A stretch of 64,000 bases of DNA from the NCBI RefSeq assembly GCF_003287875.1, contig NZ_QMKK01000054.1, forward strand, positions 496,001 through 560,000, written 5' to 3'. Positions 26,817 to 42,848 of this stretch are shown here, in pieces; the stretch's first letter is position 1, and each line of letters starts with the position of its first letter. The stretch comes from Martinezella tropici. GTDB lineage: Bacteria; Pseudomonadota; Alphaproteobacteria; Rhizobiales; Rhizobiaceae. The translations under genes were made by a program, and so were the position numbers. Under the pieces are notes generated by a model. That model was given only the letters and a program-made list of their open reading frames with translations, made no database searches and had not been told where the DNA came from.

Positions 26817-26975
26817 GGAGAAAATGGCCGAACGGTCGCGAGGAGGCGGCCGACAGCCTGTTGCAGGCCTGGTTGCCGCGCAGCGTGCGCGGCCCACCGG
26901 GAAAAGGCGTGAACGTCGCGGCCCGTTTCCCATTGTTTGGGTAGGCCGCACAGTCGATAAGAATGGGAGGAGATG

Positions 26976-28877
26976 ATGCAACAGTGGAAGAAGCTTGCCT
27001 TCGGTGTCGCACTGGCCACGTTCGGCCTCGTCGCGGCAGCCAAGGCTCAGGACTATACCTCTTTGCCTCGCAAGGAGACCTTGATCGTCGAAAACCCCGA
27101 GGGAACGATTAAGAATCCGGGCTGGTTCAATATCTGGGTCAATGGCGGCGGCGGCGTTTCGACCGGCTTGCAGCAGCTGACCATGGATACGCTCTGGTAT
27201 ATCGATCCGGAAAAGGGCCTGGGCGGCTCCGCCTGGGACAATTCGCTCGCTGCCGACAAGCCGCAGTATAATGATGATTTCACCCAAATGACGGTGAAGC
27301 TGCGCAAGGGTATCTACTGGAGCGACGGCGTCGAGTTCACCGCCGATGACGTGGTTTACACCGTCAAGACGCAGATGGACCATCCCGGCATGGTCTGGAG
27401 TGCTGCCTTTTCGGTTCAGGTCGCCAGCGTCGAGGCAACGGATCCCTATACCGTCGTCTTCAAGCTGAAGAAGCCGAATTCACGCTTTCACGCCATCTTC
27501 ACCGTTCGCTGGAACGGCGCGTGGATCATGCCTAAGCATGTCTTCGAGAAGGTCGCCGATCCCGTTCGTTATGATAATGCCAATCCCGTCTCGCTCGGCG
27601 CCTATAAGCTGAAGGCCTACGATCCGCAGGGCAAATGGTACACCTGGGAGAAGCGTGACGATTGGCAGCGCACTTCGCTTGCCCGCTTTGGCGAGCCGGC
27701 TCCGAAATATGTGAGCTATGTCGATCCCGGTCCGCCGGATAAGCGCACCATCGCGCAAATCGAGCACAATCTGGATATCATTCACGACAACACGCCGGAA
27801 GGCATGTTCACGCTGAAGGAAAAGTCGAAGACCGTCGAAAGTTGGTTCCCCGGCTTCCCCTTCGCGCATCCGGATCCGACGCTGCCGGCTGTGATCTTCA
27901 ACAATCAGGATCCGCTGTTCCAGAATGCCGATGTGCGCTGGGCCTTGGCATTGCTCATCGATATCAAGGCCGTCGACATGGCGAGCTATCGTGGCGCCGC
28001 CACGCTTTCGGCGCTCGGCGTTCCGCCGACGGCGATTGCCATGACGGACTATCAGGCACCGATGCAGGATTGGCTGAAGAATTTCGAGATCGATACCGGC
28101 AAACGCAAGATCAAGCCCTACGATCCGACGGTCGGTCAGCAGATTGCCGATCTGCTGCGCAAGCAGCCGAAGTTCAAAGATCAGATTCCGACCGATCCGG
28201 CCGCCATCAGTGCTGCCTTCGGCTATGGCTGGTGGAAGCCCGATCCGCAGGCCGCTGCGGAGCTTTTGGAAAAGGCAGGCTTCAAGAAGGTGGGTGGCAA
28301 ATGGATGACGCCCGATGGGCAGCCCTTCAAGATCCGTCTGACGGTCGAAGGCGACACCCGCTCGGTCTTCACCCGCGCCGGGACCCTGATTGCCCAGCAA
28401 TGGGCGGCCTTCGGCATCGACTCCAAGGCTGCACCCACCACAAACCTCTGGCAAGTGGCACTGCAGCCCGGCAGCTATCAGGTTGCCATCGCCTGGAGCG
28501 TCGAGACCTGGGGCGGTGATCCGGATCTATCCTTCTTCCTCGACAGCTGGCATTCGCAGTTCGTTGCCAAGAAGGGCGAAAACCAGGCGCCGCGCAACTG
28601 GCAGCGCTGGTCCAATCCCGAGCTCGACAAGATCATCGAAAACATCCGCCGCATCAGCGCAGACGATCCGAAGGGTATCGAACTCGGCAAGGACTATCTG
28701 AAACTGGTCGCCCGTGAAATGCCGACCATTCCCCTGATGTCCTACAACGTCTTCACGTCGATGGATACGACCTACTGGAAGGGTTATCCGACGATAGCGG
28801 ATCCCTACACCGACCCCGTTCCGAATTGGGCGAACTCGCGGTTGATGATGGTGAAGCTCAAGCCGGCGCAGCCTTAA
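26976..28877 (+). CDS. Opp/Dpp-type ABC substrate-binding protein, probably for arabino-oligosaccharides
   Basis: A 633-residue family 5 solute-binding protein (SBP_bac_5), large like the oligosaccharide-binding members. The signal peptide is MQQWKKLAFGVALATFGLVA with cleavage after AKA, before QDYTSLPRKETLIVENPEG. LRKGIYWSDGVEFTADDVVY and TVVFKLKKPNSRFHAIFTVR are family landmarks. Of two adjacent ATGs (26973, 26976), the second is better spaced from GGGAGG. It sits between the arabinofuranosidase gene and the permease genes, so arabinosides are a more likely ligand than peptides. Confidence 0.87.
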   Translation: MQQWKKLAFGVALATFGLVAAAKAQDYTSLPRKETLIVENPEGTIKNPGWFNIWVNGGGGVSTGLQQLTMDTLWYIDPEKGLGGSAWDNSLAADKPQYNDDFTQMTVKLRKGIYWSDGVEFTADDVVYTVKTQMDHPGMVWSAAFSVQVASVEATDPYTVVFKLKKPNSRFHAIFTVRWNGAWIMPKHVFEKVADPVRYDNANPVSLGAYKLKAYDPQGKWYTWEKRDDWQRTSLARFGEPAPKYVSYVDPGPPDKRTIAQIEHNLDIIHDNTPEGMFTLKEKSKTVESWFPGFPFAHPDPTLPAVIFNNQDPLFQNADVRWALALLIDIKAVDMASYRGAATLSALGVPPTAIAMTDYQAPMQDWLKNFEIDTGKRKIKPYDPTVGQQIADLLRKQPKFKDQIPTDPAAISAAFGYGWWKPDPQAAAELLEKAGFKKVGGKWMTPDGQPFKIRLTVEGDTRSVFTRAGTLIAQQWAAFGIDSKAAPTTNLWQVALQPGSYQVAIAWSVETWGGDPDLSFFLDSWHSQFVAKKGENQAPRNWQRWSNPELDKIIENIRRISADDPKGIELGKDYLKLVAREMPTIPLMSYNVFTSMDTTYWKGYPTIADPYTDPVPNWANSRLMMVKLKPAQP

Positions 28878-28994
28878 TTCTCCCAACCCTGACGCGGCTG
28901 ATGCGCCGCGCCAGGCACCTGTCGCCGGGCGCGAAACGGGTCCGGCGATCTTTTCGATAAGAGATGAAATGCGAGCAGTAAGGAAAACGACGGA

Positions 28995-29999
28995 ATGACG
29001 TCTTATCCAGTTTTCGTATTGAAACGATTTGGCCAGTTTCTGCTCGTCGTCTTCCTCGGCATATCTGCGACGTTCTTCATCACGCATCTGACACCGATCG
29101 ATCCGGTCGAGGAAAGCATCGGCGCCATTCAGCAGATGGGGCAATCGGATCCCCGCGCCGTCGAACTGATGCGCGAGTCCCTGCGGGAACTCTACGGCAT
29201 CGGGGGCTCGATCTGGCAGCAATATCTGCATTTCTGGGCACGCCTTGCGACAGGCGATCTCGGACCGTCGCTCTCGGCATTTCCCACGCCGGTTTCCGCC
29301 ATCATTGCAAGGGCGCTGCCCTGGACAATCGGTTTGATGACGGTTTCGACAATCATCACATTTCTGATCGGCAATATGATCGGCGCGCTGGCGGGCTATT
29401 ATCGCAAGAATACGCTGCTGAAGGCGGTCAGTCTCGTTTTCATCGCCATGCAGCCGATACCCTATTACATCCTGGCCTTCGTCCTGATCATTCTCTTCGG
29501 CTATATCTGGCCGATCCTGCCGATCAACGGCGGTTACGAGATGAACACCAATCTGCAGCTGTCCTTTGCTTTGGTGCTCGATATTCTGCGCCACTCCATC
29601 CTGCCGGCGTTATCCCTGATCCTTGTCGGGACAGGCAGCTGGCTTATCGGCATGCGGGCGCTGGTCTCCAATATCATCACCGAGGATTATGTCGTGTTCG
29701 CCGAGCTCGGCGGCGTGCCGAAGCGTAGGATTTTGCGCTCCTACATCGCCCGCAACGCCATGGTGCCGCAGTTTACCGGCCTTGCCATGTCGCTCGGCGC
29801 CGTCTTCAACGGCACCGTCATCACCGAGATCGTCTTCGGTTATCCCGGTATCGGCAATCTTCTGATTTCGGCCGTCCATGCCGGCGATTACAGCCTTGTC
29901 CTGGGGCTTAGCGCTTTGTCGATTGTCGGCGTCGCCGCCGCGGTCTTCATCATCGACATATTGGGTCCGCTGATCGACCCGCGCATCAAGGTGGAGTAG
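28995..29999 (+). CDS. Opp-type ABC transporter permease (OppB/DppB-like)
   Basis: A 334-residue inner-membrane permease (BPD_transp_1). The N-terminal FVLKRFGQFLLVVFLGISAT followed by a long periplasmic stretch and LARLATGDLGPSL-type loop is the OppB layout. The coupling motif is the EAA loop FAELGGVPKRRILRSYIARN. About six membrane segments are visible. It is the first permease of the operon, 118 bases after the binding-protein gene, and forms a heterodimer with the next product. Confidence 0.9.
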   Translation: MTSYPVFVLKRFGQFLLVVFLGISATFFITHLTPIDPVEESIGAIQQMGQSDPRAVELMRESLRELYGIGGSIWQQYLHFWARLATGDLGPSLSAFPTPVSAIIARALPWTIGLMTVSTIITFLIGNMIGALAGYYRKNTLLKAVSLVFIAMQPIPYYILAFVLIILFGYIWPILPINGGYEMNTNLQLSFALVLDILRHSILPALSLILVGTGSWLIGMRALVSNIITEDYVVFAELGGVPKRRILRSYIARNAMVPQFTGLAMSLGAVFNGTVITEIVFGYPGIGNLLISAVHAGDYSLVLGLSALSIVGVAAAVFIIDILGPLIDPRIKVE

Positions 30000-30002
30000 G
30001 CC

Positions 30003-30860
30003 ATGCTGACGATCGTTCGCGACCTTGCTCGCCAGAATGCGGAATTCCTTTGCGGTCTGCTGCTGTTTGCCGTGATTGTCGGAATGGTGATCCTGTCTTA
30101 TTTTTCGCCTTACGGCTCTTCCGATCTTTATCTGCTGCCGCCCGACATGCCGCCGGATGGACAATACTGGCTGGGCACGACATCGCGCGGCCAGGATGTC
30201 TTCTGGCAGCTCGCTGTCGCACTTCGCAACACGCTTTATTTCGGCATCGGCGTTGCCTTTCTGTCCCGCATCATCTCGTTGGTCGTAGGGCTGGTGGCCG
30301 GCTACGCCGGCGGCACCGTCGATCGCGTGCTGATGGCGATCAATGACAGCATCATGGTCGTTCCTCAGTTTCCGCTGCTGGTCCTCTTCTATTTCGTGCT
30401 CAAGGACGAAATGACCTGGACGGTGCTGATCCTGGTCATGGCGTCGCTCGGCTGGTCTTATGACGCGCGCCTGATCCGTTCGGTGGCGATCAGCCTGAAA
30501 ACGCGACCCTTCACTACGCAAAGCGTCTATTCCGGCATGAGCATGCGCAAGATCCTCGTGGAGGAGCATCTGCCCTATGTGCTGCCGATCGTCTTCGCCA
30601 CGACGATGAACAACATGATCTGGTCGATCGGCATGGAGATCACGCTTGCGGTGCTGGGTTTCACTGACATCGAAACGCCGACCATGGGAATGATGATCTA
30701 TTGGGCCAATGCGCATTCGGCATTGATCGCCGGCACCTGGTGGTGGGTTGCGGCACCCGTCGCCGCCATCGTGGTGCTGTTCATGGCGCTCTTCCTGCTG
30801 TCGATGTCGATGAATGAATACAACGATCCGCGCAGTCGTTTGAACCGGATGGGAGGCTAG
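30003..30860 (+). CDS. Opp-type ABC transporter permease (OppC/DppC-like)
   Basis: A 285-residue inner-membrane permease. The early motif QYWLGTTSRGQDVFWQLAVA is the family LGTD-G-D landmark. FGIGVAFLSRIISLVVGLVA begins the core. In place of the usual EAA loop it has YSGMSMRKILVEEHLPYVLP, and a Gly-rich segment with LAVLGFTDIETPTMGMMIYW follows. It begins 3 bases after the previous stop and is followed 2 bases later by the ATPase gene, so the operon is tight. Confidence 0.9.
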   Translation: MLTIVRDLARQNAEFLCGLLLFAVIVGMVILSYFSPYGSSDLYLLPPDMPPDGQYWLGTTSRGQDVFWQLAVALRNTLYFGIGVAFLSRIISLVVGLVAGYAGGTVDRVLMAINDSIMVVPQFPLLVLFYFVLKDEMTWTVLILVMASLGWSYDARLIRSVAISLKTRPFTTQSVYSGMSMRKILVEEHLPYVLPIVFATTMNNMIWSIGMEITLAVLGFTDIETPTMGMMIYWANAHSALIAGTWWWVAAPVAAIVVLFMALFLLSMSMNEYNDPRSRLNRMGG

Positions 30861-30862
30861 GC

Positions 30863-31852
30863 ATGGAGGCTGTCGTCGAGGTCAATAACCTCAAGGCCTA
30901 TTATCGGGCCTTCCTCTACGGCGTCGATCGCGAAGTGCGTGCGGTGGATGATATCAGCCTGTCGATCGGCCGCGGTGAGATCTACGGCGTTGCGGGTGAA
31001 TCGAGCAGCGGCAAGACGACGTTGATCAAGACGATTGCGGGCGCGATCCGACCGCCGCTTCGTGTCGTCTCCGGTGCGGTCAAATTTCACTTCAATGGCG
31101 CAACGCAGGATATTTATGCGATGACGCCTGAGCAGCGGGCGGCGCTTCGCTGGCGGCATCTCTCCTATATCATGCAGGGATCGATGAACGTGCTCAATCC
31201 GGTGCGACGCATCCGGCACTCGTTCATCGATTTTGCCTTCCGTCATATGAAGGCCGATCGCGCCACCTTCTTCGACCGCGTCGGCGCCCATCTCCAGCGG
31301 CTGAAGCTCGATGCGAATCTTCTCGATGCCTATCCGCATGAATTGTCGGGCGGCATGCGCCAGCGCATGACGATCGCGCTTGCGACCATCCTGACGCCGG
31401 AATTCATCATTGCCGACGAGCCGACGACGGCGCTCGATGTTATCGTCCAGCGCGACGTGCTGCAGATGATCCGCGAAATACAGCGCGAGATGGGGTCCTC
31501 CTTCCTGTTCGTCACCCACGACATGGGCGTTCACGCCGCAGTCTCCGATCGCATCGGTATCGTCTATGCCGGCCGGTTGGTGGAGGAGGCACCGACGCGC
31601 AAGCTTTTCCACCTGCCGCTCCATCCCTATACGCAGCATCTGGTCGCAAGCCTGCCGCGGATCGGCGATGCCTCGACGCGGCCTTCCCTGGAAGGACGAC
31701 CACCCAATCTTGCCATGCCGCCGGAAGGATGCCGTTTTCATCCACGCTGTCCGAAGCGCATGGACATCTGCAGCCGCGAAGTGCCGCCCATGGTGGCGGT
31801 AGAGCCGGATCGACGCGTAGCCTGCTTCGCGGTGACGGGAGGAGGGCGATGA
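30863..31852 (+). CDS. Opp-type ABC transporter ATPase (OppD-like)
   Basis: A 329-residue ATPase. Walker A is GESSSGKTTLIKTIAG (Ser replaces the more common Gly), the signature [18 protein letters not shown] and Walker B FIIADEPTTALDV. The C-terminal oligopeptide extension has PEGCRFHPRCPKRMDICSRE with Cys residues, which in this family can hold an iron-sulfur cluster or zinc. It overlaps the next ATPase gene by 4 bases. Confidence 0.9.
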   Translation: MEAVVEVNNLKAYYRAFLYGVDREVRAVDDISLSIGRGEIYGVAGESSSGKTTLIKTIAGAIRPPLRVVSGAVKFHFNGATQDIYAMTPEQRAALRWRHLSYIMQGSMNVLNPVRRIRHSFIDFAFRHMKADRATFFDRVGAHLQRLKLDANLLDAYPHELSGGMRQRMTIALATILTPEFIIADEPTTALDVIVQRDVLQMIREIQREMGSSFLFVTHDMGVHAAVSDRIGIVYAGRLVEEAPTRKLFHLPLHPYTQHLVASLPRIGDASTRPSLEGRPPNLAMPPEGCRFHPRCPKRMDICSREVPPMVAVEPDRRVACFAVTGGGR

Positions 31853-32673
31853 GCGATCTTCTTTCACTCTCGCATGTCAGCAAGGTCTATCGTCAGGGCG
31901 GCATGCTCAGCCGGCGCCAGATCGTGGCGGTTCGCAATGTCAGTCTGAGCCTCGGAGAGGAGCCGGAAATCCTTTCGATCGTCGGCGAGTCAGGCTCCGG
32001 CAAATCCACCATTGCGTCGATGATCCTCGGCCAGACGGCGCCGACATCGGGCAGCCTGAATTTTCGCGGCAGACCGGTGGCCATTCATGGCCGGTCCGAG
32101 CGGCGCGCCTTCATGCGGGAGGTACAGCCGGTCCTTCAGAATCCGTTCGAAGCGTTCAACCCCCTCAAGAGGGTTGATCGATATCTTTTTGAAACGGCAA
32201 GGAATTTCGCGCCGACCGGCGTGAGGCCAAGTCGGGCGGATGTCGAGCGCATGGCCGACGAGGCGCTTGCCCATATCGGCTTGACGCTTGCCGAGGTGAA
32301 GGGGCGGTTTCCGCATGAGCTTTCGGGCGGCCAGCTGCAGCGAACCGCAATCGCCCGCGCGCTCATACCGCAGCCCCGTCTGCTGGTAGCCGACGAGCCG
32401 GTTTCGATGGTGGATGCTTCCCTGAGAATGGCGATCGTCAATCTCTTCGGCCAGCTGAAGAAGGAGCTGGGGCTATCGATCATCTACATCACCCATGATC
32501 TGGCGACTGCCTATTACATCAGCGATCGCATCATCATCATGAAGAAGGGCGAGATCGTCGAGCAGGGCGGTGCGCGTGCGGTTCTGGATAATCCGCAGCA
32601 TCCCTATTCGCGGGCTTTGAAGGAGGCTGTCCTCTCCACCACGCCCGAAGTCGAGCCGGTCTCGATCGCATGA
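31849..32673 (+). CDS. Opp-type ABC transporter ATPase (OppF-like)
   Basis: A 274-residue ATPase pairing with the OppD-like subunit. Walker A is GESGSGKSTIASMILG, the signature ELSGGQLQRTAIARALI and Walker B LLVADEPVSMVD, with the H-loop in IIYITHDLATAYYI. The start overlaps the previous stop (ATGA, behind GGAGGG). It lacks the long Cys-containing tail of its partner. It is the last gene of the arabinoside operon and converges on the Lrp-type gene 10 bases on. Confidence 0.9.
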   Translation: MSDLLSLSHVSKVYRQGGMLSRRQIVAVRNVSLSLGEEPEILSIVGESGSGKSTIASMILGQTAPTSGSLNFRGRPVAIHGRSERRAFMREVQPVLQNPFEAFNPLKRVDRYLFETARNFAPTGVRPSRADVERMADEALAHIGLTLAEVKGRFPHELSGGQLQRTAIARALIPQPRLLVADEPVSMVDASLRMAIVNLFGQLKKELGLSIIYITHDLATAYYISDRIIIMKKGEIVEQGGARAVLDNPQHPYSRALKEAVLSTTPEVEPVSIA

Positions 32674-32683
32674 TCGGTCACTT

Positions 32684-33115
32684 TCAACGCGAGATCCGCG
32701 TCGAAAGGATGATGGATGACAGGGTGCGTTCGACGCCGTCGATCGTGCCGATGCCGTCGATCAGCTGATCCAGCTCGGAGATCGACGGTGCTGCGATGAT
32801 AGCGATCAGATCGAACGTGCCGCTGACGGAATGAAGCGTCGTTACCTCGGGGATAGCATTCAGCGATGCGGTCACGGCTGATAATGCCTTCGGCGCGATC
32901 GTGATCAGTACATGCGCCCGAATGAGGCCCGATAGATAGGTTTCCGACAGCCGCACGCCATAGCCCGCAATCACGCCTTCTCGCTCCAGCCGCTCTAGCC
33001 TCGCCTGAACGGTGGTGCGCGACAGCGACAGCTTTTTGGCGAGAGTCGCGACAGGCATTCGGGCATTCTGGCCGAGCAAGGCGATCAGTTCGCGGTCCTT
33101 ATCGGTGACCTGCAT
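32684..33115 (-). CDS. Lrp/AsnC-family regulator, probable lysine-responsive
   Basis: A 143-residue DNA-binding protein. The helix-turn-helix spans about residues 5-55 (DKDRELIALLGQNARMPVAT, then LSRTTVQARLERLEREGVI). The RAM ligand domain follows (HVLITIAPKALSAVTASLNA, then TLHSVSGTFDLIAIIAAPSI). The ATG at 33115 has AGGAG 6 bases upstream; the longer frame to 33136 lacks support. It is divergent from the lysine 6-dehydrogenase-like gene, and two palindromes lie between them. By analogy with Lrp-type regulators of amino acid catabolism it probably senses lysine and activates that gene. Confidence 0.87.
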   Translation of the reverse strand: MQVTDKDRELIALLGQNARMPVATLAKKLSLSRTTVQARLERLEREGVIAGYGVRLSETYLSGLIRAHVLITIAPKALSAVTASLNAIPEVTTLHSVSGTFDLIAIIAAPSISELDQLIDGIGTIDGVERTLSSIILSTRISR

Positions 33116-33133
33116 GGCGACTCCTGCATTTTG

Positions 33134-33168
33134 CAAATTCTATTCGTCAATTTGTATAGATTTATACA
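33134..33168. promoter_or_regulatory. probable Lrp-type operators
   Basis: Two palindromes lie between the divergent Lrp and dehydrogenase genes. CAAATT-N9-AATTTG occupies 33134-33154 and TGTATA-N4-TATACA occupies 33153-33168. AT-rich dyads of this kind, often in pairs, are typical Lrp-family sites. Confidence 0.55.
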
Positions 33169-33253: not shown

Positions 33254-34357
33254 ATGAAAGACATAGTGGTCATCGGTGCGGGCAAGATCGGTGGGGCGAT
33301 CGCTCTGATGCTGGCGGAAACAGGCGATTACACGGTCGTTGTCGCCGACCGCAGCCAGGAACAGCTCGACAAGATCGACCGTCACCCCGCGATTTCCACC
33401 GCCGCCGTCGATATTGCCGACCGCGCCGGGCTCGTAGGCGTTCTGAAGGGCAAGTTCGCCGTTCTGTCGGCCGCCCCGTTCCATCTCACAGGTTTCGTCG
33501 CGGAAGCGGCACTTGAAGCCGGCGTTCATTATCTCGACCTCACCGAAGACGTGGCCACGACCAAGAAGGTCGAGGAACTGGCTCAGGGAGCAAATACCGC
33601 CTTTATCCCGCAATGCGGACTTGCGCCGGGCTTCATCTCGATCGTCGCCAATGATCTTACCAAGCATTTCGACAGCCTCGACAGCGTGCGCATGCGCGTC
33701 GGCGCGCTGCCGCAGTATCCCTCCAACGCTCTGAACTACAATCTGACCTGGAGCACGGACGGCCTCATCAACGAATATATCGAGCCCTGCGAAGCGATCG
33801 TCGAAGGCAAGCTCGTGACCGTGCCGGCCATGGAAGAGCGCGAGGAGTTCTCGCTCGACGGCGTCACCTACGAAGCCTTCAACACGTCTGGCGGCCTCGG
33901 CACGCTCGCCAAGACGCTGGCTGGCCGCGTGCGGACGATGAACTACCGCACCATCCGCTATCCCGGCCATCAGGCCATCATCAAGGCGCTGCTGAACGAC
34001 CTCAACCTCAAGAACCGCCGCGATGTGCTGAAGGATCTCTTCGAGAACGCGCTGCCGGCCACCATGCAGGACGTGGTCGTCGTTTTCGTCACCGTGTGCG
34101 GTTGGCGCGAGGGCCGCTACATGCAAGAAACCTATGCCAACAAGGTCTATGCAGGCATCGTTGCCGGCAAGAAGATGAGCGCCATCCAGATCACCACCGC
34201 AGCCGGCATTACGACCGTGCTTGATCTTCTCGCTCAGGGCAAGCTGCCCTCCAAGGGCTTCGTTTGCCAGGAAGAAATCGATCTCGGCGATTTCCTCGCC
34301 AATCGCTTCGGACAGGTTTACAGCCTCGAGAAGATCAGGATGAAAGAAGCCGTCTAA
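33254..34357 (+). CDS. L-lysine 6-dehydrogenase / saccharopine dehydrogenase family
   Basis: A 367-residue NAD(P)-dependent enzyme of the saccharopine dehydrogenase family. The nucleotide-binding motif is IVVIGAGKIGGAIALMLAET, with Asp at the end of strand 2 (VVVADRSQ). FIPQCGLAPGFISIVANDL and RTMNYRTIRYPGHQAIIKAL are family motifs. Its length fits the lysine 6-dehydrogenase (EC 1.4.1.18) described from Agrobacterium, which converts L-lysine to 2-aminoadipate 6-semialdehyde. The ATG at 33254 has AGGGGAG upstream; the open frame before it crosses the promoter. The neighbouring antiquitin-type dehydrogenase acts on exactly that product, which favours a lysine role. True saccharopine dehydrogenase activity is the alternative. 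Confidence 0.8.
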   Translation: MKDIVVIGAGKIGGAIALMLAETGDYTVVVADRSQEQLDKIDRHPAISTAAVDIADRAGLVGVLKGKFAVLSAAPFHLTGFVAEAALEAGVHYLDLTEDVATTKKVEELAQGANTAFIPQCGLAPGFISIVANDLTKHFDSLDSVRMRVGALPQYPSNALNYNLTWSTDGLINEYIEPCEAIVEGKLVTVPAMEEREEFSLDGVTYEAFNTSGGLGTLAKTLAGRVRTMNYRTIRYPGHQAIIKALLNDLNLKNRRDVLKDLFENALPATMQDVVVVFVTVCGWREGRYMQETYANKVYAGIVAGKKMSAIQITTAAGITTVLDLLAQGKLPSKGFVCQEEIDLGDFLANRFGQVYSLEKIRMKEAV

Positions 34358-34384
34358 GCGGCTATTCCTATTGCTGTTTTGAAA

Positions 34385-34406
34385 TGTGGCGCCTTCGGGC
34401 GCCACA
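34385..34406. terminator. UUCG-loop terminator between convergent genes
   Basis: TGTGGCGCC (34385-34393), loop TTCG, GGCGCCACA (34398-34406): a perfect 9-bp stem with a stable tetraloop, followed by TGTGTTTGG. It separates the dehydrogenase gene from the converging FAD/Fe-S gene. Confidence 0.75.
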
Positions 34407-34439
34407 TGTGTTTGGCCCTTGGAAACGGCGCTGCAGAGA

Positions 34440-37400
34440 CTAACTGATCAGTCGTTCGAGGATCTCGACGGGATGCGGGATGGCTTGATGATCAATCTTG
34501 GCGACCTGCGAACGACAAGAAAATCCAGTCGCCATGACGACGGCCCGATTGCCGTTCTCGGCGATCCTGTCCTGCCAGCTCATCGCGTAAAGCTTTTCCG
34601 AGATGGCACGATTGCGCACTTCGTGCCCGAAGGTGCCGGCCATGCCGCAGCAGCCGACATCGGGCATATCTAGCCTGATTCCCAATTTCCCGAAGAGCAC
34701 GGACCATTGCTTGAGGGCAGCCGGAGCGTTCGTTTTCTCCGTGCAATGGGCAAGCAGCGTGAAGCGCTCTTGCGACAGGGCCTGTGGCGGCGGCAATCGG
34801 TCGAGATTGGCGCCGAGCCATTCCTGAAGCAGCAGCACCGGCGCCTGCAGCTTGGCGGATGGCAGGGCTGCATATTCGCCGCGATAGGTCAGCGTCATCG
34901 ATGGATCGATGCCGACAAGCGATATGCCCAGTTGCGAGATGCGATCGAGATAGTCGCGAGATTTCACCGCCGCCTTCTCGAAGCGGCCGAGATAGCCATG
35001 GACATGCAGGGCCTTGCCGTTGCTCGGTGACATAGCGAGCCACGGCTTGAAGCCCATTTTCAGCGCGAGCTTGAGCGCAGCGATGACAACGGCTGGATCA
35101 AAATAGGTGGAGAAGACGTCGGCAACGATGACGACAGCTTGGGTGCGCTCCTCCGCGGAGAGCTTTCCCAACAGTTCAGGAGTAGCAAGCTGCACGCGGA
35201 GACGAGCCGCTTCCCGTTCGAGCGATGCGGCAGGCATGGCCGGAAGCGCGGTGAGACCGGCAAGCCGCATCAAGGCCTGGCCGATACTGGAGCCCGTCAG
35301 CAGGTTGTAGCCAAGCTTGAAACGCGCCATCAGCGGCAGGGTAGTCTCGATGGCGGCGACGATCGGGTCCTTCAACGGCCTGACATAGCGGCCGTAATAG
35401 AGCTCCAGAAACTTCGATCTGAAGGCTGGGACGCTGACTTTGACGGGACATTGGCCGGCGCAGGCCTTGCAGGCGAGGCAGGTATCCATCGCTGCTCGCA
35501 CCTCATGGGAAAAGTCGTCGCGATTGGCCGGATTGAGCGAGTTCACGGTTCGCCGCAAGAGATTGCCGAAAGGATTGGCGCGGCGCAAAGCTTCCGCCTC
35601 TCGCCGCGGATCGATCTTCCGCTCCGCCAGCAGGCGCAGCCATTCGCGCATCAATGCCGCGCGACCCTTCGGCGAATAGCGCCGGTCGCCCGTCGCCTTG
35701 AAAGAGGGGCACATCGGGCTTGTCGCGTCGAAATCGAAACAGGCGCCGTTACCGTTGCAATAGGCTGCATTGTCGAAGGCGGCACGGATGTCGTTGCCGA
35801 TGATGCGGTCCAAGTCGCCACGCAGTGACACTTCGTCGATCTTCAGCAACGGGCGGGATGAGCCGGATGCGATCTTGCCGGGATTGAGGCGATCGCCGGG
35901 GTCGAATGCGCGCTTGATGTCCTGCAGGCTCGGATAAAGCTCGCCAAAATATTCAGGGACATATTCCGAGCGAACGCCCTTGCCATGTTCACCCCAGAGC
36001 ACGCCGCCATATTTGCGGGTGAGGGCAACGACGCCGTCGCTGATCCTCCGGACGAGCGGCTGATGGTCCGCGCGGGTGAGATCGAGCGCCGGGCGGACAT
36101 GCAGCACGCCGGCATCGACATGGCCGAACATGCCGTAATCCAGCCCCTCGGCATCGAGTAGGGCGCGAAATTCTCTTATATAAGCGGCCAGATGCTCGGG
36201 CGGAACGGCGGTGTCCTCGACAAAGGGCACCGGCCGCACCGGCCCTTCGACATTGCCGAGCAGACCGACGGCGCGTTTGCGCATCGACCATATCGCCTCG
36301 ATCTCGCTCTTTTCGCGGGCGACCGTATAACCCTTGTGACGCGCGGAAGAACGGTCATCAAGGGCCGCGGTGACATCCGCGAGCTTGCGTTCCAGCTCGT
36401 CGCGATCGTCAGCCAGCACCTCGACGATATTGATGCCATTGGCCGAGCCGGACGCATCCTCCGGAAAGAAGTGGGCGATGCCGCTCCAGACGATGTCGCC
36501 CTTGGCGAGACCCAGCACCTTCTCGTCGACTGTCTCGACCGAGGCGACCTTCAGCGCCACTAACCGTCTGGCATCTTCGAGCGCCGTGTTGAAATCATCA
36601 TAGCGGATATTGATGAGGGCAGATTGCGCCGGGATCGGCAGCACGTTGAGTTCGGCCTCGGCGATCATCGCAAGCGTGCCTTCGGAGCCGCACAGCACTG
36701 CATTCAGATCGAAGCGGCCGTCCTCGCACCTGATATGGGCAAGATCATAGCCGGTCATGTATCGGTTGAGCTTGGGGAAGGTCGCCGCGATCAGCTCGCT
36801 TTTGTCCCTAGCGATTGCATCCACCACCCGGTGAATTTCGCCGATCCGATCGTCACGCGCCTTGATCTCGTCCAGCTCGGGATTGCCAAGCGGGCGCGAC
36901 CACCAGTCGCTGCCATCGCAAAGCACCACACGAAGGCCGAGAACGTGGTTGCTGGTCTTGCCGTAGAGACAGGAGCCCTGGCCGCAGGCATCAGTGGAGA
37001 TCATGCCGCCGATGGTGGCGCGGTTGGAGGTGGAAAGCTCTGGCGCAAAGAATAGGCCGTACGGTTTCAACGCCTTGTTCAATTGATCCTTGACGACACC
37101 GGCCTCGACACGGGCGATCTTTCGAACCGGATCGATCTCCAGGATGCGGTTCATATGTCGGGAGCAGTCGACGACGACGCCCGAGGTCAGGGATTGCCCG
37201 TTCGTTCCGGTGCCACCGCCGCGGGGAGTGATGACAAGATCGGAAAAGGCAGGTTCAGATAAGGCTTTGGCGATGATTTTCAGATCATCGGCGCCGCGTG
37301 GATAGAGAAGGGCGGCAGGCTTGACCTGATAGATGGAATTGTCGGTCGAGGCGACTGTCCGCGCGCCGTCCTCCGTCTCAACATCTCCTTGAAAACCAAG

Positions 37401-37475
37401 TGCTGACAGACGACGGGCGAAGGCGCCGGTCTGATGTAGCGAACTGTCTTTCGCCGAAACGAGGCGTGGTATCAT
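34440..37475 (-). CDS. ydiJ: FAD-linked and Fe-S D-2-hydroxyglutarate dehydrogenase (YdiJ-like)
   Basis: A 1011-residue fusion enzyme. Residues about 50-280 are an FAD-binding domain of the vanillyl-alcohol oxidase fold (TPRGGGTGTNGQSLTSG at 83-99). About 280-540 is the FAD-linked oxidase C-terminal domain with GHVDAGVLH near 451 and DPGDRLNPGKI near 525. An Fe-S section follows, with C573/C579/C589 and the ferredoxin-like C666-x2-C-x2-C-x3-C in CLACKACAGQCPV. The C-terminus has a heterodisulfide-reductase-type DVGCCGMAGTFGHE. E. coli YdiJ and Pseudomonas relatives oxidise D-2-hydroxyglutarate to 2-oxoglutarate. This fits as the last step after the HglS-like enzyme encoded upstream on the same strand. 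Confidence 0.82.
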   Translation of the reverse strand: MIPRLVSAKDSSLHQTGAFARRLSALGFQGDVETEDGARTVASTDNSIYQVKPAALLYPRGADDLKIIAKALSEPAFSDLVITPRGGGTGTNGQSLTSGVVVDCSRHMNRILEIDPVRKIARVEAGVVKDQLNKALKPYGLFFAPELSTSNRATIGGMISTDACGQGSCLYGKTSNHVLGLRVVLCDGSDWWSRPLGNPELDEIKARDDRIGEIHRVVDAIARDKSELIAATFPKLNRYMTGYDLAHIRCEDGRFDLNAVLCGSEGTLAMIAEAELNVLPIPAQSALINIRYDDFNTALEDARRLVALKVASVETVDEKVLGLAKGDIVWSGIAHFFPEDASGSANGINIVEVLADDRDELERKLADVTAALDDRSSARHKGYTVAREKSEIEAIWSMRKRAVGLLGNVEGPVRPVPFVEDTAVPPEHLAAYIREFRALLDAEGLDYGMFGHVDAGVLHVRPALDLTRADHQPLVRRISDGVVALTRKYGGVLWGEHGKGVRSEYVPEYFGELYPSLQDIKRAFDPGDRLNPGKIASGSSRPLLKIDEVSLRGDLDRIIGNDIRAAFDNAAYCNGNGACFDFDATSPMCPSFKATGDRRYSPKGRAALMREWLRLLAERKIDPRREAEALRRANPFGNLLRRTVNSLNPANRDDFSHEVRAAMDTCLACKACAGQCPVKVSVPAFRSKFLELYYGRYVRPLKDPIVAAIETTLPLMARFKLGYNLLTGSSIGQALMRLAGLTALPAMPAASLEREAARLRVQLATPELLGKLSAEERTQAVVIVADVFSTYFDPAVVIAALKLALKMGFKPWLAMSPSNGKALHVHGYLGRFEKAAVKSRDYLDRISQLGISLVGIDPSMTLTYRGEYAALPSAKLQAPVLLLQEWLGANLDRLPPPQALSQERFTLLAHCTEKTNAPAALKQWSVLFGKLGIRLDMPDVGCCGMAGTFGHEVRNRAISEKLYAMSWQDRIAENGNRAVVMATGFSCRSQVAKIDHQAIPHPVEILERLIS

Positions 37476-37510
37476 GATGCGAAGACTTCCGGCGTTTTAC
37501 GCGGTGATTG

Positions 37511-37548
37511 GAGCATTCCCGCTTTTAAACAGAATTACGGGAATGCTC
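37511..37548. promoter_or_regulatory. 11-bp inverted repeat upstream of the ydiJ-like gene
   Basis: GAGCATTCCCG (37511-37521) and CGGGAATGCTC (37538-37548) are perfect complements 16 bases apart, 36 bases before the ydiJ-like start. It could be a read-through hairpin after the aminotransferase gene or an operator for the FAD/Fe-S gene. Confidence 0.45.
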
Positions 37549-37610
37549 TATCTCTTTGTTTTCACGCAGTTCCGGATGGACAGCCGTTTTGTGCGTCGGT
37601 CGCAGCTGCT

Positions 37611-38846
37611 CTAGCGCCGGAGCGCCGCGCAGGCCCTTTCGATGCGATCAAGCGCTTCGACGAGATCGGCTTCCGATGTCGCATAGGAAATGCGGAAATA
37701 GGCCGACAATCCGAAGGCGGAGCCGGGCACGACGGCGACATGGGCCTCATCGAGCAGATAGGCGCAGAAATCCGCATCCGTCTCGATCATCTTTCCGGAC
37801 GGTGTCGTCGTTCCAAGCACGCCGGCGCAATCCGAGAATGTGTAGAAGGCGCCTTCCGGCACAAGGCAATCCAGGCCTTCAATGGCGTTCAGCCTGTTGA
37901 CGACGAGATCGCGCCGACGCTGGAAGCTTGCCTTGCGACCCTCGAGAAAATCCTGCGGGCCATTCAGCGCAGCGACGGCCGCAGCCTGGCTGACGGAGGA
38001 AGGGCAGGAGGTCGCCTGGCTCTGGATAACGGCCATGGCCTTGATGAGAGCCTTGGGACCGCCAGCATAGCCGATGCGCCAGCCAGTCATAGCATAGGAC
38101 TTGGAAACGCCGTTGACCGTCAGCGTCCGGCTCTTGAGGCTCGGCGTGATCGCGACGGGGGTGACGAACTGAAAGCCCTCATAGACGATGTGCTCATACA
38201 TATCGTCGACCATCAGCCAGACATGCGGATGGCGCAGCAGCACCTCGATCAGCGGCCGATAATCAGCCTCGGAATAGGCGGCACCCGATGGATTCGACGG
38301 CGAATTGAGAAGCAGCCAGCGCGTCCTCGGCGTGATCGCCTGTTCAAGCTGGTCAGCCTTCAGGCGGAAGCCCGCGGCAGCATCGCAGGGGATCAGAACG
38401 GGCACGCCGCCGCAAATCTCGACGATATCGGAATAGGAGGTCCAATAGGGCGTCGGGATGATGACTTCATCGCCCGGATTGATCGACGCCATGAAGGCAT
38501 TGAACAGGATCTGCTTGGCACCTGTCGCCACAGTGATTTCGTCGAGTGCGTAGTCGATGCCGTTCTCACGTTTGAATTTTCCGGCAATCGCGTTCTTCAG
38601 CTCCGGCGTGCCGTCGAGCGCGGTATATTTCGTTTCGCCACGATCGATGGCGGCCTTGGCGGCTTCCTTGACATTGTCGGGCGTGTCGAAATCCGGTTCG
38701 CCGGCGCCGAGAATGATGACCGGAAGGCCCTCCCGCTTCATCGCATTGGCGCGCGCGCCGATCTGAAGAATGGTGGAAACGCCGATGGAGGCGATCCGCG
38801 AAGCGGGCTTGAAGCCCGCCTCTTCGATTTTGGTCGCAACCGTCAT
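37611..38846 (-). CDS. class I/II aminotransferase, probable 2-aminoadipate transaminase
   Basis: A 411-residue PLP enzyme of fold type I, in the AspAT subgroup Ib common in rhizobia. The PLP lysine is K249 in TVNGVSKSYAMTGWRIGYAG. NSPSNPSGAAYSEADY holds the cofactor Asn, VDDMYEHIVYEG the Asp/Tyr pair, and FRISYATSE the carboxylate-binding Arg near the C-terminus. Members use aspartate, aromatic amino acids or 2-aminoadipate. It lies 5 bases after the antiquitin-type gene, so conversion of 2-aminoadipate to 2-oxoadipate is the likely step. The start at 38846 is the first ATG after that stop. Confidence 0.83.
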   Translation of the reverse strand: MTVATKIEEAGFKPASRIASIGVSTILQIGARANAMKREGLPVIILGAGEPDFDTPDNVKEAAKAAIDRGETKYTALDGTPELKNAIAGKFKRENGIDYALDEITVATGAKQILFNAFMASINPGDEVIIPTPYWTSYSDIVEICGGVPVLIPCDAAAGFRLKADQLEQAITPRTRWLLLNSPSNPSGAAYSEADYRPLIEVLLRHPHVWLMVDDMYEHIVYEGFQFVTPVAITPSLKSRTLTVNGVSKSYAMTGWRIGYAGGPKALIKAMAVIQSQATSCPSSVSQAAAVAALNGPQDFLEGRKASFQRRRDLVVNRLNAIEGLDCLVPEGAFYTFSDCAGVLGTTTPSGKMIETDADFCAYLLDEAHVAVVPGSAFGLSAYFRISYATSEADLVEALDRIERACAALRR

Positions 38847-38851
38847 GGAAC

Positions 38852-40384
38852 TTACTCGATGTCGAAGGAGACACCCTGCGCCAACGGCAGGGCCTTGGAG
38901 TAGTTCACCGTGTTGGTCGCCCGGCGCATATAGGCCTTCCAAGCGTCGGAGCCGGATTCGCGGCCGCCGCCGGTTTCCTTCTCGCCGCCGAATGCGCCAC
39001 CGATTTCAGCGCCCGAGGTGCCGATGTTGACGTTGGCAATGCCGCAATCGGAGCCGTCGGCTGCCAGGAAGCGCTCGGATTCCTGCATATCACGCGTGAA
39101 GATCGAGGACGACAGGCCGGCGGCAACGGCATTGTGCTCATCGATGACAGCGTCAAAATCGTCATAGTGCATGACGTAGAGGATGGGCGCGAAGGTTTCT
39201 TCCATGACCGGGCCTGCCTGCTTCGGCATTTCCACAAGCGCCGGCTTTGCGTAATAGCCGTCGGCATGGCCGATATCGACGCGCTCGCCGCCGGTGACGG
39301 AGCCGCCATGGGCCTTCGCCTCGGCAATGGCCTTCTGCATGCCGTCGAACGCTGCCTTGTCGATCAGCGGGCCTACGAGCGCGGAAGAGTGCAGGGGATC
39401 GCCGACCGATACGCTCTGATAGGCCTTCTTCAGCCGCGGTACGAGCTGATCGTAGACGCTTTTGTGGACGAAGAGACGGCGCAGCGTCGTGCAGCGCTGG
39501 CCGGCGGTACCCATGGCGCCGAAGGCGATGGCGCGCAGCGCCATATCGAGATCGGCCGAGGGGCAGACGATGCCGGCATTGTTGCCGCCGAGTTCGAGAA
39601 TGGCGCGGGCAAAACGCTTGGCAAGCCGCGGCCCGACTTCACGGCCCATGCGGGTCGAGCCGGTTGCCGAAACGAGCGGCACCTTCGGATGGTCGACGAG
39701 GACTTCGCCGATGGCGCGATCGCCGATCAGAACCTGCGACAGGCCCTCCGGCGCGTCGCCGAAGCGGGCAAGCGCACGATCGAGGATCGCCTGCGAGGCA
39801 AGTGCGGTCAGCGGCGTCTTTTCCGAGGGTTTCCAGACGACGGCGTCGCCACAGATCAGCGCCAGCGCCGCGTTCCACGACCAGACCGCGACCGGGAAGT
39901 TGAAGGCGGAGATGATGCCGACGACGCCGAGCGGATGCCAGGTTTCCATCATGCGATGGCCCGGACGTTCGGTGGCGATCGTCAGGCCGTACAGCTGGCG
40001 GGAAAGGCCGACGGCGAAATCGCAGATGTCGATCATTTCCTGCACTTCGCCGAGCCCCTCGGAGCGGATCTTGCCGGCTTCGATCGAAACCAGACGGCCG
40101 AGATCGTCCTTGGCGGCGCGCAGTTCTTCGCCGAGCAGGCGCACCAGTTCGCCGCGCTTCGGTGCCGGAACAAGGCGCCAGGCGCGGAATGCGGCATGCG
40201 CCTTCTCGATTTTCTTCGCCGCATCATCGGCCGAAACGGTCTTGAGGCTGCCGATCTTCTCGCCGGTGACCGGGGAGTAGGAGGGCATGTCGCCTTGCGT
40301 GTAGAGCGCCTTGTCGACGCCGAGCTTTTCGAGAATGGCGGCAGCTTCGGCTGCAACGGAAGGGGTCTTGGCTGCGATGTTCAT
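38852..40384 (-). CDS. amaB: 2-aminoadipate 6-semialdehyde dehydrogenase (antiquitin/ALDH7 type, AmaB-like)
   Basis: A 510-residue NAD-dependent aldehyde dehydrogenase. Catalytic C298 lies in GTAGQRCTTLRR, the general base E264 in LELGGNNAG, and N163 in SAFNFPVAVWSWN. The C-terminal block GSDCGIANVNIGTSGAEIGG continues with GGEKETGGGRESGSDAWKAY and NYSKALPLAQG, nearly identical to human antiquitin (ALDH7A1) as I recall it. That family oxidises 2-aminoadipate 6-semialdehyde in lysine breakdown. The ATG at 40384 is preferred to a GTG at 40399. It lies between the HglS-like and aminotransferase genes in one operon. Confidence 0.9.
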   Translation of the reverse strand: MNIAAKTPSVAAEAAAILEKLGVDKALYTQGDMPSYSPVTGEKIGSLKTVSADDAAKKIEKAHAAFRAWRLVPAPKRGELVRLLGEELRAAKDDLGRLVSIEAGKIRSEGLGEVQEMIDICDFAVGLSRQLYGLTIATERPGHRMMETWHPLGVVGIISAFNFPVAVWSWNAALALICGDAVVWKPSEKTPLTALASQAILDRALARFGDAPEGLSQVLIGDRAIGEVLVDHPKVPLVSATGSTRMGREVGPRLAKRFARAILELGGNNAGIVCPSADLDMALRAIAFGAMGTAGQRCTTLRRLFVHKSVYDQLVPRLKKAYQSVSVGDPLHSSALVGPLIDKAAFDGMQKAIAEAKAHGGSVTGGERVDIGHADGYYAKPALVEMPKQAGPVMEETFAPILYVMHYDDFDAVIDEHNAVAAGLSSSIFTRDMQESERFLAADGSDCGIANVNIGTSGAEIGGAFGGEKETGGGRESGSDAWKAYMRRATNTVNYSKALPLAQGVSFDIE

Positions 40385-40443
40385 CTTGTGAAACTCCACT
40401 TGTCTTGATCCGGATGGCGCGCGGCTGTCATCGCCGCATCACC

Positions 40444-41835
40444 TCACTCGGCGGCGTCTTGTTTGGAAAGGGCTCGTAGGCAAGCATCGATCGATGCCTG
40501 TTCAATGCAGGCGTAATGGTCAAATTCGTTCAGCACCTTCATGCCGAGATCGGCCTCGAAGCGCTGCTGGTTCGGGCTGGCGACGAAGTCCTGCTGCGCG
40601 CCATCGCCGAGATTGGACTGGAAGATACCGGCAGCGCTGACGGGAAGGAAATCCTCGTAGACGATGGGGTCGAACTGGACGAGGCCCTGGTTAATCAGTT
40701 CATCGATATCCCCGCCCGTTGCGGCGGTCTTGCCCTTGGCCGTCAGCGAATAGGTGAAGTAGCCGAGGCCTTCAGCGCGGATCGCCGCCCAGTCATCCGG
40801 GAATTCAGCAAAGCTCTCGGCAAGTGCGGCCTCATAATCCCGCGCGTTCGATCCATCGGCAGCCGGCCGTACGATCTTGCGCGACTGATCGAGCAGCTTG
40901 TCATAAAGCGCGCGGCCCTTCGGCGTGAGCGCAATGCCGCGCTGTTCGATCTCGCCGAAGCGGGCGGTGTGCGAGCCTTCTTCCCAGACGCCATCGGCAT
41001 TGCGGAAGGAAACGGGTTCTTCCAGCGCCTTGAACGAGGTCTGGCGCAACAGGATCGGGCAGGAGCGCGTCGGCGGTCCTTCGACCACGGCCTTCGGTGC
41101 GATATCGTAATCCGGCATCAGCGCCTGTACCTGGTCGATATCCAGCGTGCGCGGAGTCAGATGATTGATGTGCGGTCCCTTGAAGGACACGACATCGGCA
41201 ATCAGGCGATGGGCATCGTGGAGCCGATGGTACATGCCAGCATCAACATTGGCTTCGTCATGCCAGCGGAAGGTCTCCAAAACCTCGCCGACGAAGCGCT
41301 GGGCGTCGCCCTTGTTCAGGCCGCCTTCGCGCTCTGCCTTTTCGGTGAGTGCGACGGCGCCATCGGTGAAAATCCGGCGCTTGGCCAGAATCTCTGCGGC
41401 TGCCTTGCGAAGATCTTCGTCGGCGACGAGATCGAGCCGCAGCAGCGAGGTGAAAACGCGGAAGGGATTGCGCTTCAGCTCCGCATCGCCGATCGGCCGG
41501 AATGCGGTCGAATGAACCGGCACGCCGGCGGTCGAAAGATCGTAATAGCCGACCGGATACATGCCCATGACGGCGAAGACGCGCGCCATCATCGCAAGCT
41601 CTGCCGCGGTGCCGAGCCGGATGGCGCCGTGACGCTCCTCGGAGATGCGATCGAGATAATCCGTCGCCTCCAGCCGCTCCTTAAGCCCTGGCTGGGCCAC
41701 CAGCGTTTCGTCGTTGACGCGAGCGACCAGTTCCATCAACGTGCCGTAGGCGGGAACTTCTTCGCGATACATCGCCGACATGGCGGCTGAAAAAGCGCTG
41801 CGAATATCGCTGGTCGAGACGTGATCAGGCTTCAT
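40444..41835 (-). CDS. hglS: 2-oxoadipate dioxygenase/decarboxylase (HglS-like, DUF1338)
   Basis: A 463-residue Fe(II) enzyme of the DUF1338/YdcJ family. In Pseudomonas putida, HglS converts 2-oxoadipate to D-2-hydroxyglutarate. Putative metal and substrate residues are H69 and R73 (SEERHGAIRLG), H225 (GPHINHLTPRTLD) and E295 (ARFGEIEQRG), at nearly the published spacing. QRGIALTPKGRALYDKLL near 300 is also family-typical. It is the first gene of the minus-strand operon with the antiquitin and aminotransferase genes, and a LysR gene is divergent 104 bases away. The product would feed the YdiJ-like dehydrogenase. Confidence 0.88.
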   Translation of the reverse strand: MKPDHVSTSDIRSAFSAAMSAMYREEVPAYGTLMELVARVNDETLVAQPGLKERLEATDYLDRISEERHGAIRLGTAAELAMMARVFAVMGMYPVGYYDLSTAGVPVHSTAFRPIGDAELKRNPFRVFTSLLRLDLVADEDLRKAAAEILAKRRIFTDGAVALTEKAEREGGLNKGDAQRFVGEVLETFRWHDEANVDAGMYHRLHDAHRLIADVVSFKGPHINHLTPRTLDIDQVQALMPDYDIAPKAVVEGPPTRSCPILLRQTSFKALEEPVSFRNADGVWEEGSHTARFGEIEQRGIALTPKGRALYDKLLDQSRKIVRPAADGSNARDYEAALAESFAEFPDDWAAIRAEGLGYFTYSLTAKGKTAATGGDIDELINQGLVQFDPIVYEDFLPVSAAGIFQSNLGDGAQQDFVASPNQQRFEADLGMKVLNEFDHYACIEQASIDACLRALSKQDAAE

Positions 41836-41939: not shown

Positions 41940-42848
41940 ATGACCATGCGTCGACGCCTCATCCCTGACATCGTCAATCTTCAAGCATTCGAATGCGCGG
42001 CGCGCCATCAGAATTTTTCGCGTGCCGCCGAAGAACTCAATCTAACCCAAAGCGCGGTCAGCCGGCAAATCAGCGATCTCGAGCAGCAGACGGGCCTGAA
42101 GCTGTTCGAGCGCGTTCGCCAACGCGTCGTGCTGTCCGAGGCCGGACTTCGGTTATTGCCGGAGGTCAAGGACCTGCTCTTGCGCTCGGAGCGGCTGATG
42201 ATCGGCGCCGTTGCCGCCGGCCAGATGAAATTGTCTCTGAAGGTCGCGACCTTGCCGACCTTCGGCACGCGCTGGCTGGTGCCCCGCCTCGGCCGGTTTC
42301 TAGACGAACATCGCGATGTCGCGGTCACGCTGGAATCCCGGTCCAAGCCCTTCAATTTTGAGGAGGATAATTTCGATCTTGCCATTCACTACGGCCTGCC
42401 GGCATGGGCCGGCGCGGTTGCTACTTTTCTTTGCAACGAGACCGTGCTGCCCGTTGCCAGCCGGGAACTTGCCGGACGGCTGGCTCTTGTCTTGCCGCAG
42501 GAACTATCGGGAGCGCCGCTGCTGCATCTGACGACGCGCCCGAAGCTTTGGGCCCAATGGTTCGATCTGCAGGAGTTGCCGACGGAGAATGCCTATCCCG
42601 GCGCGCGCTTCGACCAGTTTTCCATGATCATCGCCGCAGCCATTGCCGGGCTCGGCGTGGCGCTTCTGCCGACCTATCTCATCGAGGAAGAACTGAGGGT
42701 CGGCACGCTTCTGCCGCTGTTTAATCTGCCGATGCCGACCGAGAACAGCTATTACGTCGTGATGCCGGAAAAGAAGCAGACGAACGAGACTGCGACATCG
42801 TTTCGGGACTGGCTCCTGAGCGAGGTCACGCCACAGAGACAGGTTTGA
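41940..42848 (+). CDS. LysR-family regulator (GcvA-like)
   Basis: A 302-residue LysR-type regulator. The helix-turn-helix is at about residues 12-70 (LQAFECAARHQNFSRAAEEL, then LTQSAVSRQISDLEQQTGLK). The effector domain has LKVATLPTFGTRWLVPRLGR and a C-terminal IIAAAIAGLGVALLPTYLIE. Its position divergent from hglS suggests it controls the 2-aminoadipate to 2-oxoglutarate half of the lysine route, with 2-aminoadipate or 2-oxoadipate as plausible effectors. A second ATG at 41946 is possible. It converges on the 2H phosphodiesterase gene. Confidence 0.85.
   Translation: MTMRRRLIPDIVNLQAFECAARHQNFSRAAEELNLTQSAVSRQISDLEQQTGLKLFERVRQRVVLSEAGLRLLPEVKDLLLRSERLMIGAVAAGQMKLSLKVATLPTFGTRWLVPRLGRFLDEHRDVAVTLESRSKPFNFEEDNFDLAIHYGLPAWAGAVATFLCNETVLPVASRELAGRLALVLPQELSGAPLLHLTTRPKLWAQWFDLQELPTENAYPGARFDQFSMIIAAAIAGLGVALLPTYLIEEELRVGTLLPLFNLPMPTENSYYVVMPEKKQTNETATSFRDWLLSEVTPQRQV

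Follow-up and report, generated by a model that had tools for sequence, protein, structure and literature searches.

A probable catabolic cassette for L-lysine in Martinezella tropici, with relatives on rhizobial and root-inducing plasmids

Can a single rhizobial locus carry L-lysine all the way to 2-oxoglutarate, and if so, which enzyme admits lysine to the route? The question is raised by five enzyme genes of Martinezella tropici (Rhizobiaceae; assembly GCF_003287875.1, contig NZ_QMKK01000054.1), lying in an analysed stretch of 64,000 nucleotides, here called the window, from a 6.95-Mb genome in 61 contigs. A preliminary description of the window had placed there a lysine 6-dehydrogenase or saccharopine dehydrogenase-type enzyme, an antiquitin-type dehydrogenase, an aminotransferase, an HglS-type enzyme and a YdiJ-type dehydrogenase. 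All five genes are intact open reading frames in the order and place given, Pfam domains could be assigned to all five products, and three of these (YdiJ, HglS and the antiquitin-type L-piperideine-6-carboxylate dehydrogenase, P6CDH) pass NCBIfam equivalog cut-offs, which bears out their identities. YdiJ, the aminotransferase, P6CDH and HglS are encoded in a run on the minus strand; the fifth gene, for which we adopt the name L-lysine 6-dehydrogenase (LysDH), lies outside that run and is transcribed towards it (Table 1). We consider it very likely that the locus is an L-lysine catabolic cassette leading to 2-oxoglutarate in five steps; its parts are ordinary, and the whole is well supported.

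The first enzyme decides whether the route would begin with lysine or with saccharopine. Its full-length Pfam match consists solely of saccharopine dehydrogenase domains, and NCBIfam has no good model for it. The closest solved sequences are 3abi and 3ic5, the latter an N-terminal fragment sharing 78% identity with the LysDH encoded on a Ruegeria sp. AD91A plasmid; 3abi, entitled L-lysine dehydrogenase from Pyrococcus horikoshii, comes first among full-length matches by sequence and by fold. A 15-row LysDH profile gives 3abi 121 bits (4e-34), compared to 60 bits (1.4e-15) for human saccharopine dehydrogenase. The AlphaFold model, built from 17 more diverse rows after a version from nine close sequences was discarded (predicted local distance difference test, pLDDT, 55.5), has a mean pLDDT of 91 and a predicted template modelling score of 0.90. 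It matches 3abi with a Z score of 41.9 and a root mean square deviation of 2.1 Å over 341 residues, compared to Z scores of 36.5 for carboxyspermidine dehydrogenase and 33.9 for saccharopine dehydrogenase, although the fold is common to all three. The start assigned to the gene is correct, given that the alignments of 75 out of 80 retrieved homologous loci begin at its first residue. Two domain searches of the genome gave no candidate for lysine-ketoglutarate reductase: PF04455 was absent, in a search whose controls gave hits only in two archaea, and AlaDh_PNT_N was found in only two proteins. One of these is an alanine dehydrogenase (506 bits, cut-off 392), the other is PntA-like on the evidence of a fragment, and neither is a candidate. 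On profile, structure and the lack of a reductase candidate in the two domain searches we reject a saccharopine dehydrogenase identity; of the two options left by the preliminary description, L-lysine 6-dehydrogenase is the probable one.

The same evidence bears on the proposal that the locus degrades saccharopine from plants or fungi, with the first enzyme a glutamate-forming saccharopine dehydrogenase and uptake perhaps by the adjacent oligopeptide-type importer. The Pfam domains carry the saccharopine dehydrogenase name, homologues are annotated as members of the saccharopine dehydrogenase family, the fold is shared and an ABC importer does adjoin the locus; however, structure and profile favour an L-lysine dehydrogenase, no lysine-ketoglutarate reductase candidate was found (though imported saccharopine would need none), and a close copy of the importer (89–97%) adjoins the cassette in only 9 of 22 joint loci, our term for those LysDH loci, in a set of 80 taken from GTDB genomes, that have HglS within the fetched flank (some flanks end at contig ends). 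Saccharopine breakdown is therefore very improbable, and the importer, rejected on this count as a part of the pathway, is probably a neighbour and not an obligate component.

Downstream of the lysine dehydrogenase, P6CDH matches PDB entries 6dbb and 6rtr and human alpha-aminoadipic semialdehyde dehydrogenase, and HglS matches the solved hydroxyglutarate synthase 6w1g (E 5e-169, 566 bits) and 2rjb (1e-149). In alignment, HglS retains the RHGAIR, HINHLT, GEIEQ and PVSAAG motifs of the solved enzyme, with the metal-binding triad and the specificity residue Arg74. We take the triad to be residues 70, 226 and 294, in agreement with a count along the chain. Passages of an earlier study describe HglS as active only on 2-oxoadipate among the acids tested, as requiring Arg74 and as having an HHE triad, and report fitness data from P. 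fluorescens and S. meliloti that back its role (PMC7286885). As for the glutarate route, CsiD is absent from the genome, the search having included neither glutaryl-CoA dehydrogenase nor lysine decarboxylase.

For the D-2-hydroxyglutarate step we compared 38 other HglS loci, comprising the 22 joint loci and 20 kb around each of the 16 other HglS genes of the family; YdiJ is present in 19, a flavoenzyme of the D-2-hydroxyglutarate dehydrogenase (D2HGDH) type in 6 and neither in 13, and no locus has both. FAD_binding_4 and FAD-oxidase_C domains occur in both enzymes, the D2HGDH-type flavoenzyme being a distant relative of half the length in which no Fe-S domain was seen. Among solved proteins, its S. 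meliloti representative is best matched by human D-2-hydroxyglutarate dehydrogenase (6lpn, E 5e-59), which matches YdiJ only weakly (1e-16). This swap of two D-2-hydroxyglutarate dehydrogenase types at one locus backs the predicted product of HglS. YdiJ is missing from four joint loci (L091, L114, L085 and L095). By eye, L091 (Rhizobium sp. AC27/96) has a TetR-like and an alcohol-dehydrogenase-like frame (11230–12916) in the interval from LysDH to the aminotransferase that houses YdiJ in its close relatives; this interval holds short frames only in L114 and nothing in L085 and L095. A 1017-residue frame elsewhere in the L091 genome matches YdiJ in two pieces (775 and 304 bits), and the L085 and L095 genomes have no YdiJ above the cut-off elsewhere.

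The aminotransferase has aspartate aminotransferase B (AatB) as its closest solved protein (6f35, 744 bits; 80% identity over 409 residues), and scores 570 against the NCBIfam aspartate transaminase model PRK06107, under the cut-off of 617. Its paralogues in the genome are of 60%, 47% and lower identity. We propose a 2-aminoadipate role for this AatB-type enzyme from cluster position alone. In S. meliloti Ak57, AatB is encoded beside HglS, the aminotransferase found there having 98.8% identity to 6f35; this supports, without showing, a role on 2-aminoadipate.

The reactions that we infer for this organism would run as follows. LysDH would take the epsilon-amino group off L-lysine to give 2-aminoadipate semialdehyde/L-piperideine-6-carboxylate, which the antiquitin-type dehydrogenase would convert to 2-aminoadipate and the AatB-type aminotransferase in turn to 2-oxoadipate; HglS, using Fe(II) and O2, would decarboxylate and hydroxylate this to D-2-hydroxyglutarate, and YdiJ would oxidise the latter to 2-oxoglutarate. 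The preliminary description had proposed this five-step route, and it remains the best reading, with steps 2, 4 and 5 assigned by equivalog cut-offs, step 1 by profile and structure, and step 3 by position only.

The first two steps would by themselves yield 2-aminoadipate, and it could be argued that the main task of LysDH and the semialdehyde dehydrogenase is to supply this compound as an osmolyte, the lower genes clearing any excess. Ruegeria pomeroyi is described, in passages of PMC4334477, as favouring the lysine dehydrogenase route at high salt, yielding aminoadipate. However, in the window the genes for the aminotransferase, HglS and YdiJ are co-stranded with that for the semialdehyde dehydrogenase and should drain 2-aminoadipate, so that we consider an osmolyte role decidedly unlikely. 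The lower run might alternatively act mainly in pipecolate or D-lysine breakdown, in the style of P. putida, with LysDH a separate neighbour. An AmaA-like gene (460.8 bits, cut-off 600) lies between HglS and P6CDH in locus L029 (10828–12111), similar frames were seen by eye at the same place in L028 (10700–12088) and beyond P6CDH in L035, and an AmaA-like protein is encoded elsewhere in the M. tropici genome; but the run in the window has no such gene, and LysDH is joined to it in two orientations and on several plasmids, which makes this explanation unlikely. Given the position of the AmaA-like gene in L028 and L029, the entries from pipecolate and from lysine may be modules that can replace one another.

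The window LysDH is 93–99% identical to those of Rhizobium hainanense, R. multihospitium, R. freirei, R. lusitanum, R. miluonense and R. rhizogenes 17-2069-2c, and 98% identical to that of R. tropici CIAT 899, whose 2.08-Mb plasmid (NC_020062) carries LysDH and HglS at a distance of about 7 kb. Among 61 family genomes, HglS is present in 17, LysDH (at least 63% identity) in 15 and both in 11 (Fisher p 2.5e-5, uncorrected for kinship). The 20-kb surroundings of the 16 other HglS genes include P6CDH in 14, LysR in 14, the aminotransferase in 8, the D2HGDH-type flavoenzyme in 6, LysDH in 3 and YdiJ in 1. Since P6CDH, the aminotransferase and LysR are present in all 22 joint loci (YdiJ in 18), the gene order is not due to chance. 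The pair formed by LysDH and its adjacent Lrp-type regulator gene is inverted relative to the window in both R. sullae pWSM1592_3 and R. leguminosarum Vaf10, and the modules must therefore have been joined, or flipped, more than once. A quick tree of 102 LysDH rows shows 11 changes between joint and not joint, 3 of them forced by starred branches, but rows scored as not joint may reflect contig ends, and we argue for separate joining from the two orientations alone. The plasmid comparison took in 60 HglS records out of 77 and two selections from the 85 LysDH rows, the 30 best and 60 spread ones; among the matches listed, at least 28 records hold both genes (one with only a 32% LysDH match), and in at least 17 of these the two lie within 12 kb. 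The plasmids pWSM1592_3 and Vaf10, together with two Ri plasmids discussed below, are typed as conjugative.

Several observations weigh against a five-step lysine route. Of the 61 family genomes, 6 have HglS but no close LysDH and 4 have LysDH but no HglS, while HglS is absent from 5 of 12 LysDH genomes checked separately; because each occurs alone in some genomes, neither requires the other. The 13 HglS loci with neither YdiJ nor a cluster-type D2HGDH would lack the last step locally. The AmaA-like protein of the M. tropici genome (458 bits, cut-off 600) means that pipecolate could be another input, and the step 3 enzyme is, by sequence, orthologous to a protein named aspartate aminotransferase in the PDB. 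The search for lysine-ketoglutarate reductase by two domains had no bacterial representative of that enzyme as positive control. The pocket motif [YF]-x-T-x-R, present in 127 of 127 close-family rows (overlapping loci and the window itself counted) and matched by spacing only to Tyr238, Thr240 and Arg242 of the G. stearothermophilus enzyme (PMC6697735), is not diagnostic: saccharopine dehydrogenase also has the Thr and Arg, 3abi has Glu at the Tyr position and the Ruegeria protein has Ser at the Thr position, and because of these last two deviations we do not lean on it.

The pathway is not categorically new, as LysDH with a semialdehyde dehydrogenase is known in Ruegeria and HglS in Pseudomonas. 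The lower route of D-lysine breakdown in Pseudomonas putida employs P6CDH, HglS and YdiJ of the same families, but is entered via pipecolate oxidase, whereas the window has L-lysine 6-dehydrogenase and an AatB-type aminotransferase. We take the P. putida lower-route genes to be AmaB, AmaC, HglS and YdiJ, AmaC presumably being an enzyme type other than AatB. The Ruegeria sp. AD91A plasmid pairs a 55% identical LysDH with a 67% identical P6CDH, like the window, but no HglS or YdiJ is annotated in the 13-kb stretch read; the order is that of R. pomeroyi SPO0234–SPO0235, reannotated by function as lysdh and aasadh according to passages of PMC4334477. On the AD91A plasmid (L194, 5944–12904) the LysDH and aldehyde dehydrogenase genes lie upstream of annotated cyanophycinase and cyanophycin synthetase genes, a neighbourhood hinting at turnover of lysine-containing cyanophycin. 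S. meliloti Ak57 has nearly the same parts as the window, in an HglS locus (LysR-HglS-flavoenzyme-P6CDH-AatB) and a distant Lrp-LysDH pair, but these are about 250 kb apart and a D2HGDH-type flavoenzyme replaces YdiJ. The preliminary description had presented the locus as an unusual join of two routes; the S. meliloti parts, and the fitness data that PMC7286885 already cites for HglS in that species, make it less unusual than was stated. A limited search of open-licence PMC articles turned up no account of the cassette in joined form, of its two orientations of joining, of its occurrence on conjugative plasmids or of its place on two Ri plasmids next to iaaH and an opine-dehydrogenase-like uptake operon; we do not claim that the joined pathway is missing from print. 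A lysine route with LysDH, HglS and YdiJ is reportedly among those of the GapMind web resource; the paper on that resource mentions lysine twice (one text passage and one reference) and hydroxyglutarate not at all.

The Ri plasmids pRiA4b and pRiNCPPB1855 (L195, NZ_CP128217, 181127–200506; L200, NZ_CP044124, 15597–44976) carry the whole cassette in window order, and differ from the window in the adjoining iaaH gene and in an opine-dehydrogenase-like uptake operon with RidA. Upstream of the cassette are a LysR gene and genes for a family-3 binding protein, a 2Fe-2S protein, two flavoproteins, permeases, an ATPase and RidA (domains scanned on pRiA4b); the binding protein scores 221 bits against a lysine/arginine/ornithine model whose cut-off is 256. 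Cassette and operon lie between RolB-family and ornithine-cyclodeaminase-like genes on one side and iaaH on the other. Passages of PMC6313920 describe agropine-type Ri plasmids as having TL- and TR-DNA, and RolD as an ornithine cyclodeaminase with a duplicate in ORFs 17 and 18, which the two ornithine-cyclodeaminase-like genes of pRiA4b fit. Alpha-beta-gamma flavin opine dehydrogenases composed like the 2Fe-2S protein and flavoproteins of this operon are described, lysopine is listed among opines and inhibition by lysine is reported in passages of PMC4575208. The beta subunit of the Ri operon has relatives of about 41% on other Agrobacterium plasmids, and a related operon on an R. leguminosarum plasmid (69% beta subunit) is followed by an annotated ornithine cyclodeaminase gene. 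It is as if the downstream module matched the amino acid released, ornithine cyclodeaminase in R. leguminosarum versus the lysine cassette on the Ri plasmids. The Ri operon may release lysine. The position of the cassette beside this operon and iaaH suggests a lysine-derived opine; that on agropine-type Ri plasmids the cassette forms the catabolic end of an undescribed, lysopine-like opine system is a tentative and rather unlikely proposal.

Regulation of the cassette is probably divided, with LysDH under an Lrp-type regulator and the HglS run, presumably an operon, under a GcvA-like LysR regulator. The Lrp/AsnC gene adjoins LysDH in 78 of 80 LysDH loci (best NCBIfam match LysM, 84.9 bits, under the cut-off of 180), and the LysR gene adjoins HglS in 14 of the 16 other family loci and all 22 joint loci. 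The palindrome TGTATA-N4-TATACA between the Lrp gene and LysDH is the sole window match at up to 2 mismatches (0.14 expected; at least one in 13 of 100 shuffles). At up to 3 mismatches it occurs in 27 of 80 LysDH upstream regions, the window included, versus 130 of 1600 simple shuffles, the sequences being related; the other 53 regions lack it at this threshold. A longer pattern derived from the 33153 site has 6 window matches at up to 3 mismatches (1.83 expected; none of 100 shuffles reached 6), and the LysDH promoter holds two of these matches. A common operator for the LysDH and HglS promoters was rejected, there being no match to the longer pattern between HglS and LysR.

Elsewhere in the window, an arabinosylfuranosidase ArfA gene (25277–26785, plus strand; NF051901 898 bits, cut-off 625) lies directly 5' of the oligopeptide-type importer, and a CmlA/FloR-family chloramphenicol efflux protein is encoded at 20770–21966 (plus strand; NF033134 616 bits, cut-off 450). 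Three luciferase-like monooxygenases are encoded as well (22069–23091, 49789–50946 and 55911–56903), and two lie close to the gene for an NMT1-type binding protein (52653–53666).

Table 1. Features of the lysine locus and its surroundings (window positions)
Feature	Position	Strand	Basis
Oligopeptide-type ABC importer (binding protein, two permeases, two ATPases)	26973..32673	+	3 of 5 proteins scanned (Pfam, NCBIfam)
Lrp/AsnC-family regulator, divergent from LysDH	32684..33136	-	Pfam AsnC_trans_reg + HTH
Candidate operator TGTATA-N4-TATACA	33153..33168	.	exact palindrome, putative
Sacchrp_dh-type gene, probable L-lysine 6-dehydrogenase (LysDH)	33254..34357	+	Sacchrp_dh_NADP + Sacchrp_dh_C (Pfam), profile search, model fit
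D-2-hydroxyglutarate dehydrogenase YdiJ	34440..37475	-	NCBIfam NF049975 1466 bits, cut-off 1350
Aminotransferase, AatB ortholog, proposed 2-aminoadipate aminotransferase	37611..about 38846	-	80% identity to 6f35; cluster position
L-piperideine-6-carboxylate / 2-aminoadipate semialdehyde dehydrogenase (P6CDH, antiquitin type)	38852..about 40384	-	NF050084 823 bits, cut-off 730
HglS, 2-oxoadipate dioxygenase/decarboxylase (DUF1338)	40444..41835	-	NF049974 752 bits, cut-off 550
LysR (GcvA-like) regulator, divergent from HglS	41940..42848	+	Pfam; GcvA model 261 bits, cut-off 288

The cassette predicts an entire route from L-lysine to 2-oxoglutarate in rhizobia of the R. tropici type that would not pass through glutaryl-CoA, and AatB, now named as an aspartate aminotransferase, gains a candidate physiological role in the transamination of 2-aminoadipate. 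With the cassette present on conjugative and Ri plasmids, both the use of lysine by bacteria of the rhizosphere and the possible existence of a lysine opine can be tested directly. If the opine proposal is true, the cassette of the window would be part of a mobile module for lysine use that moves between rhizobial and root-inducing plasmids.

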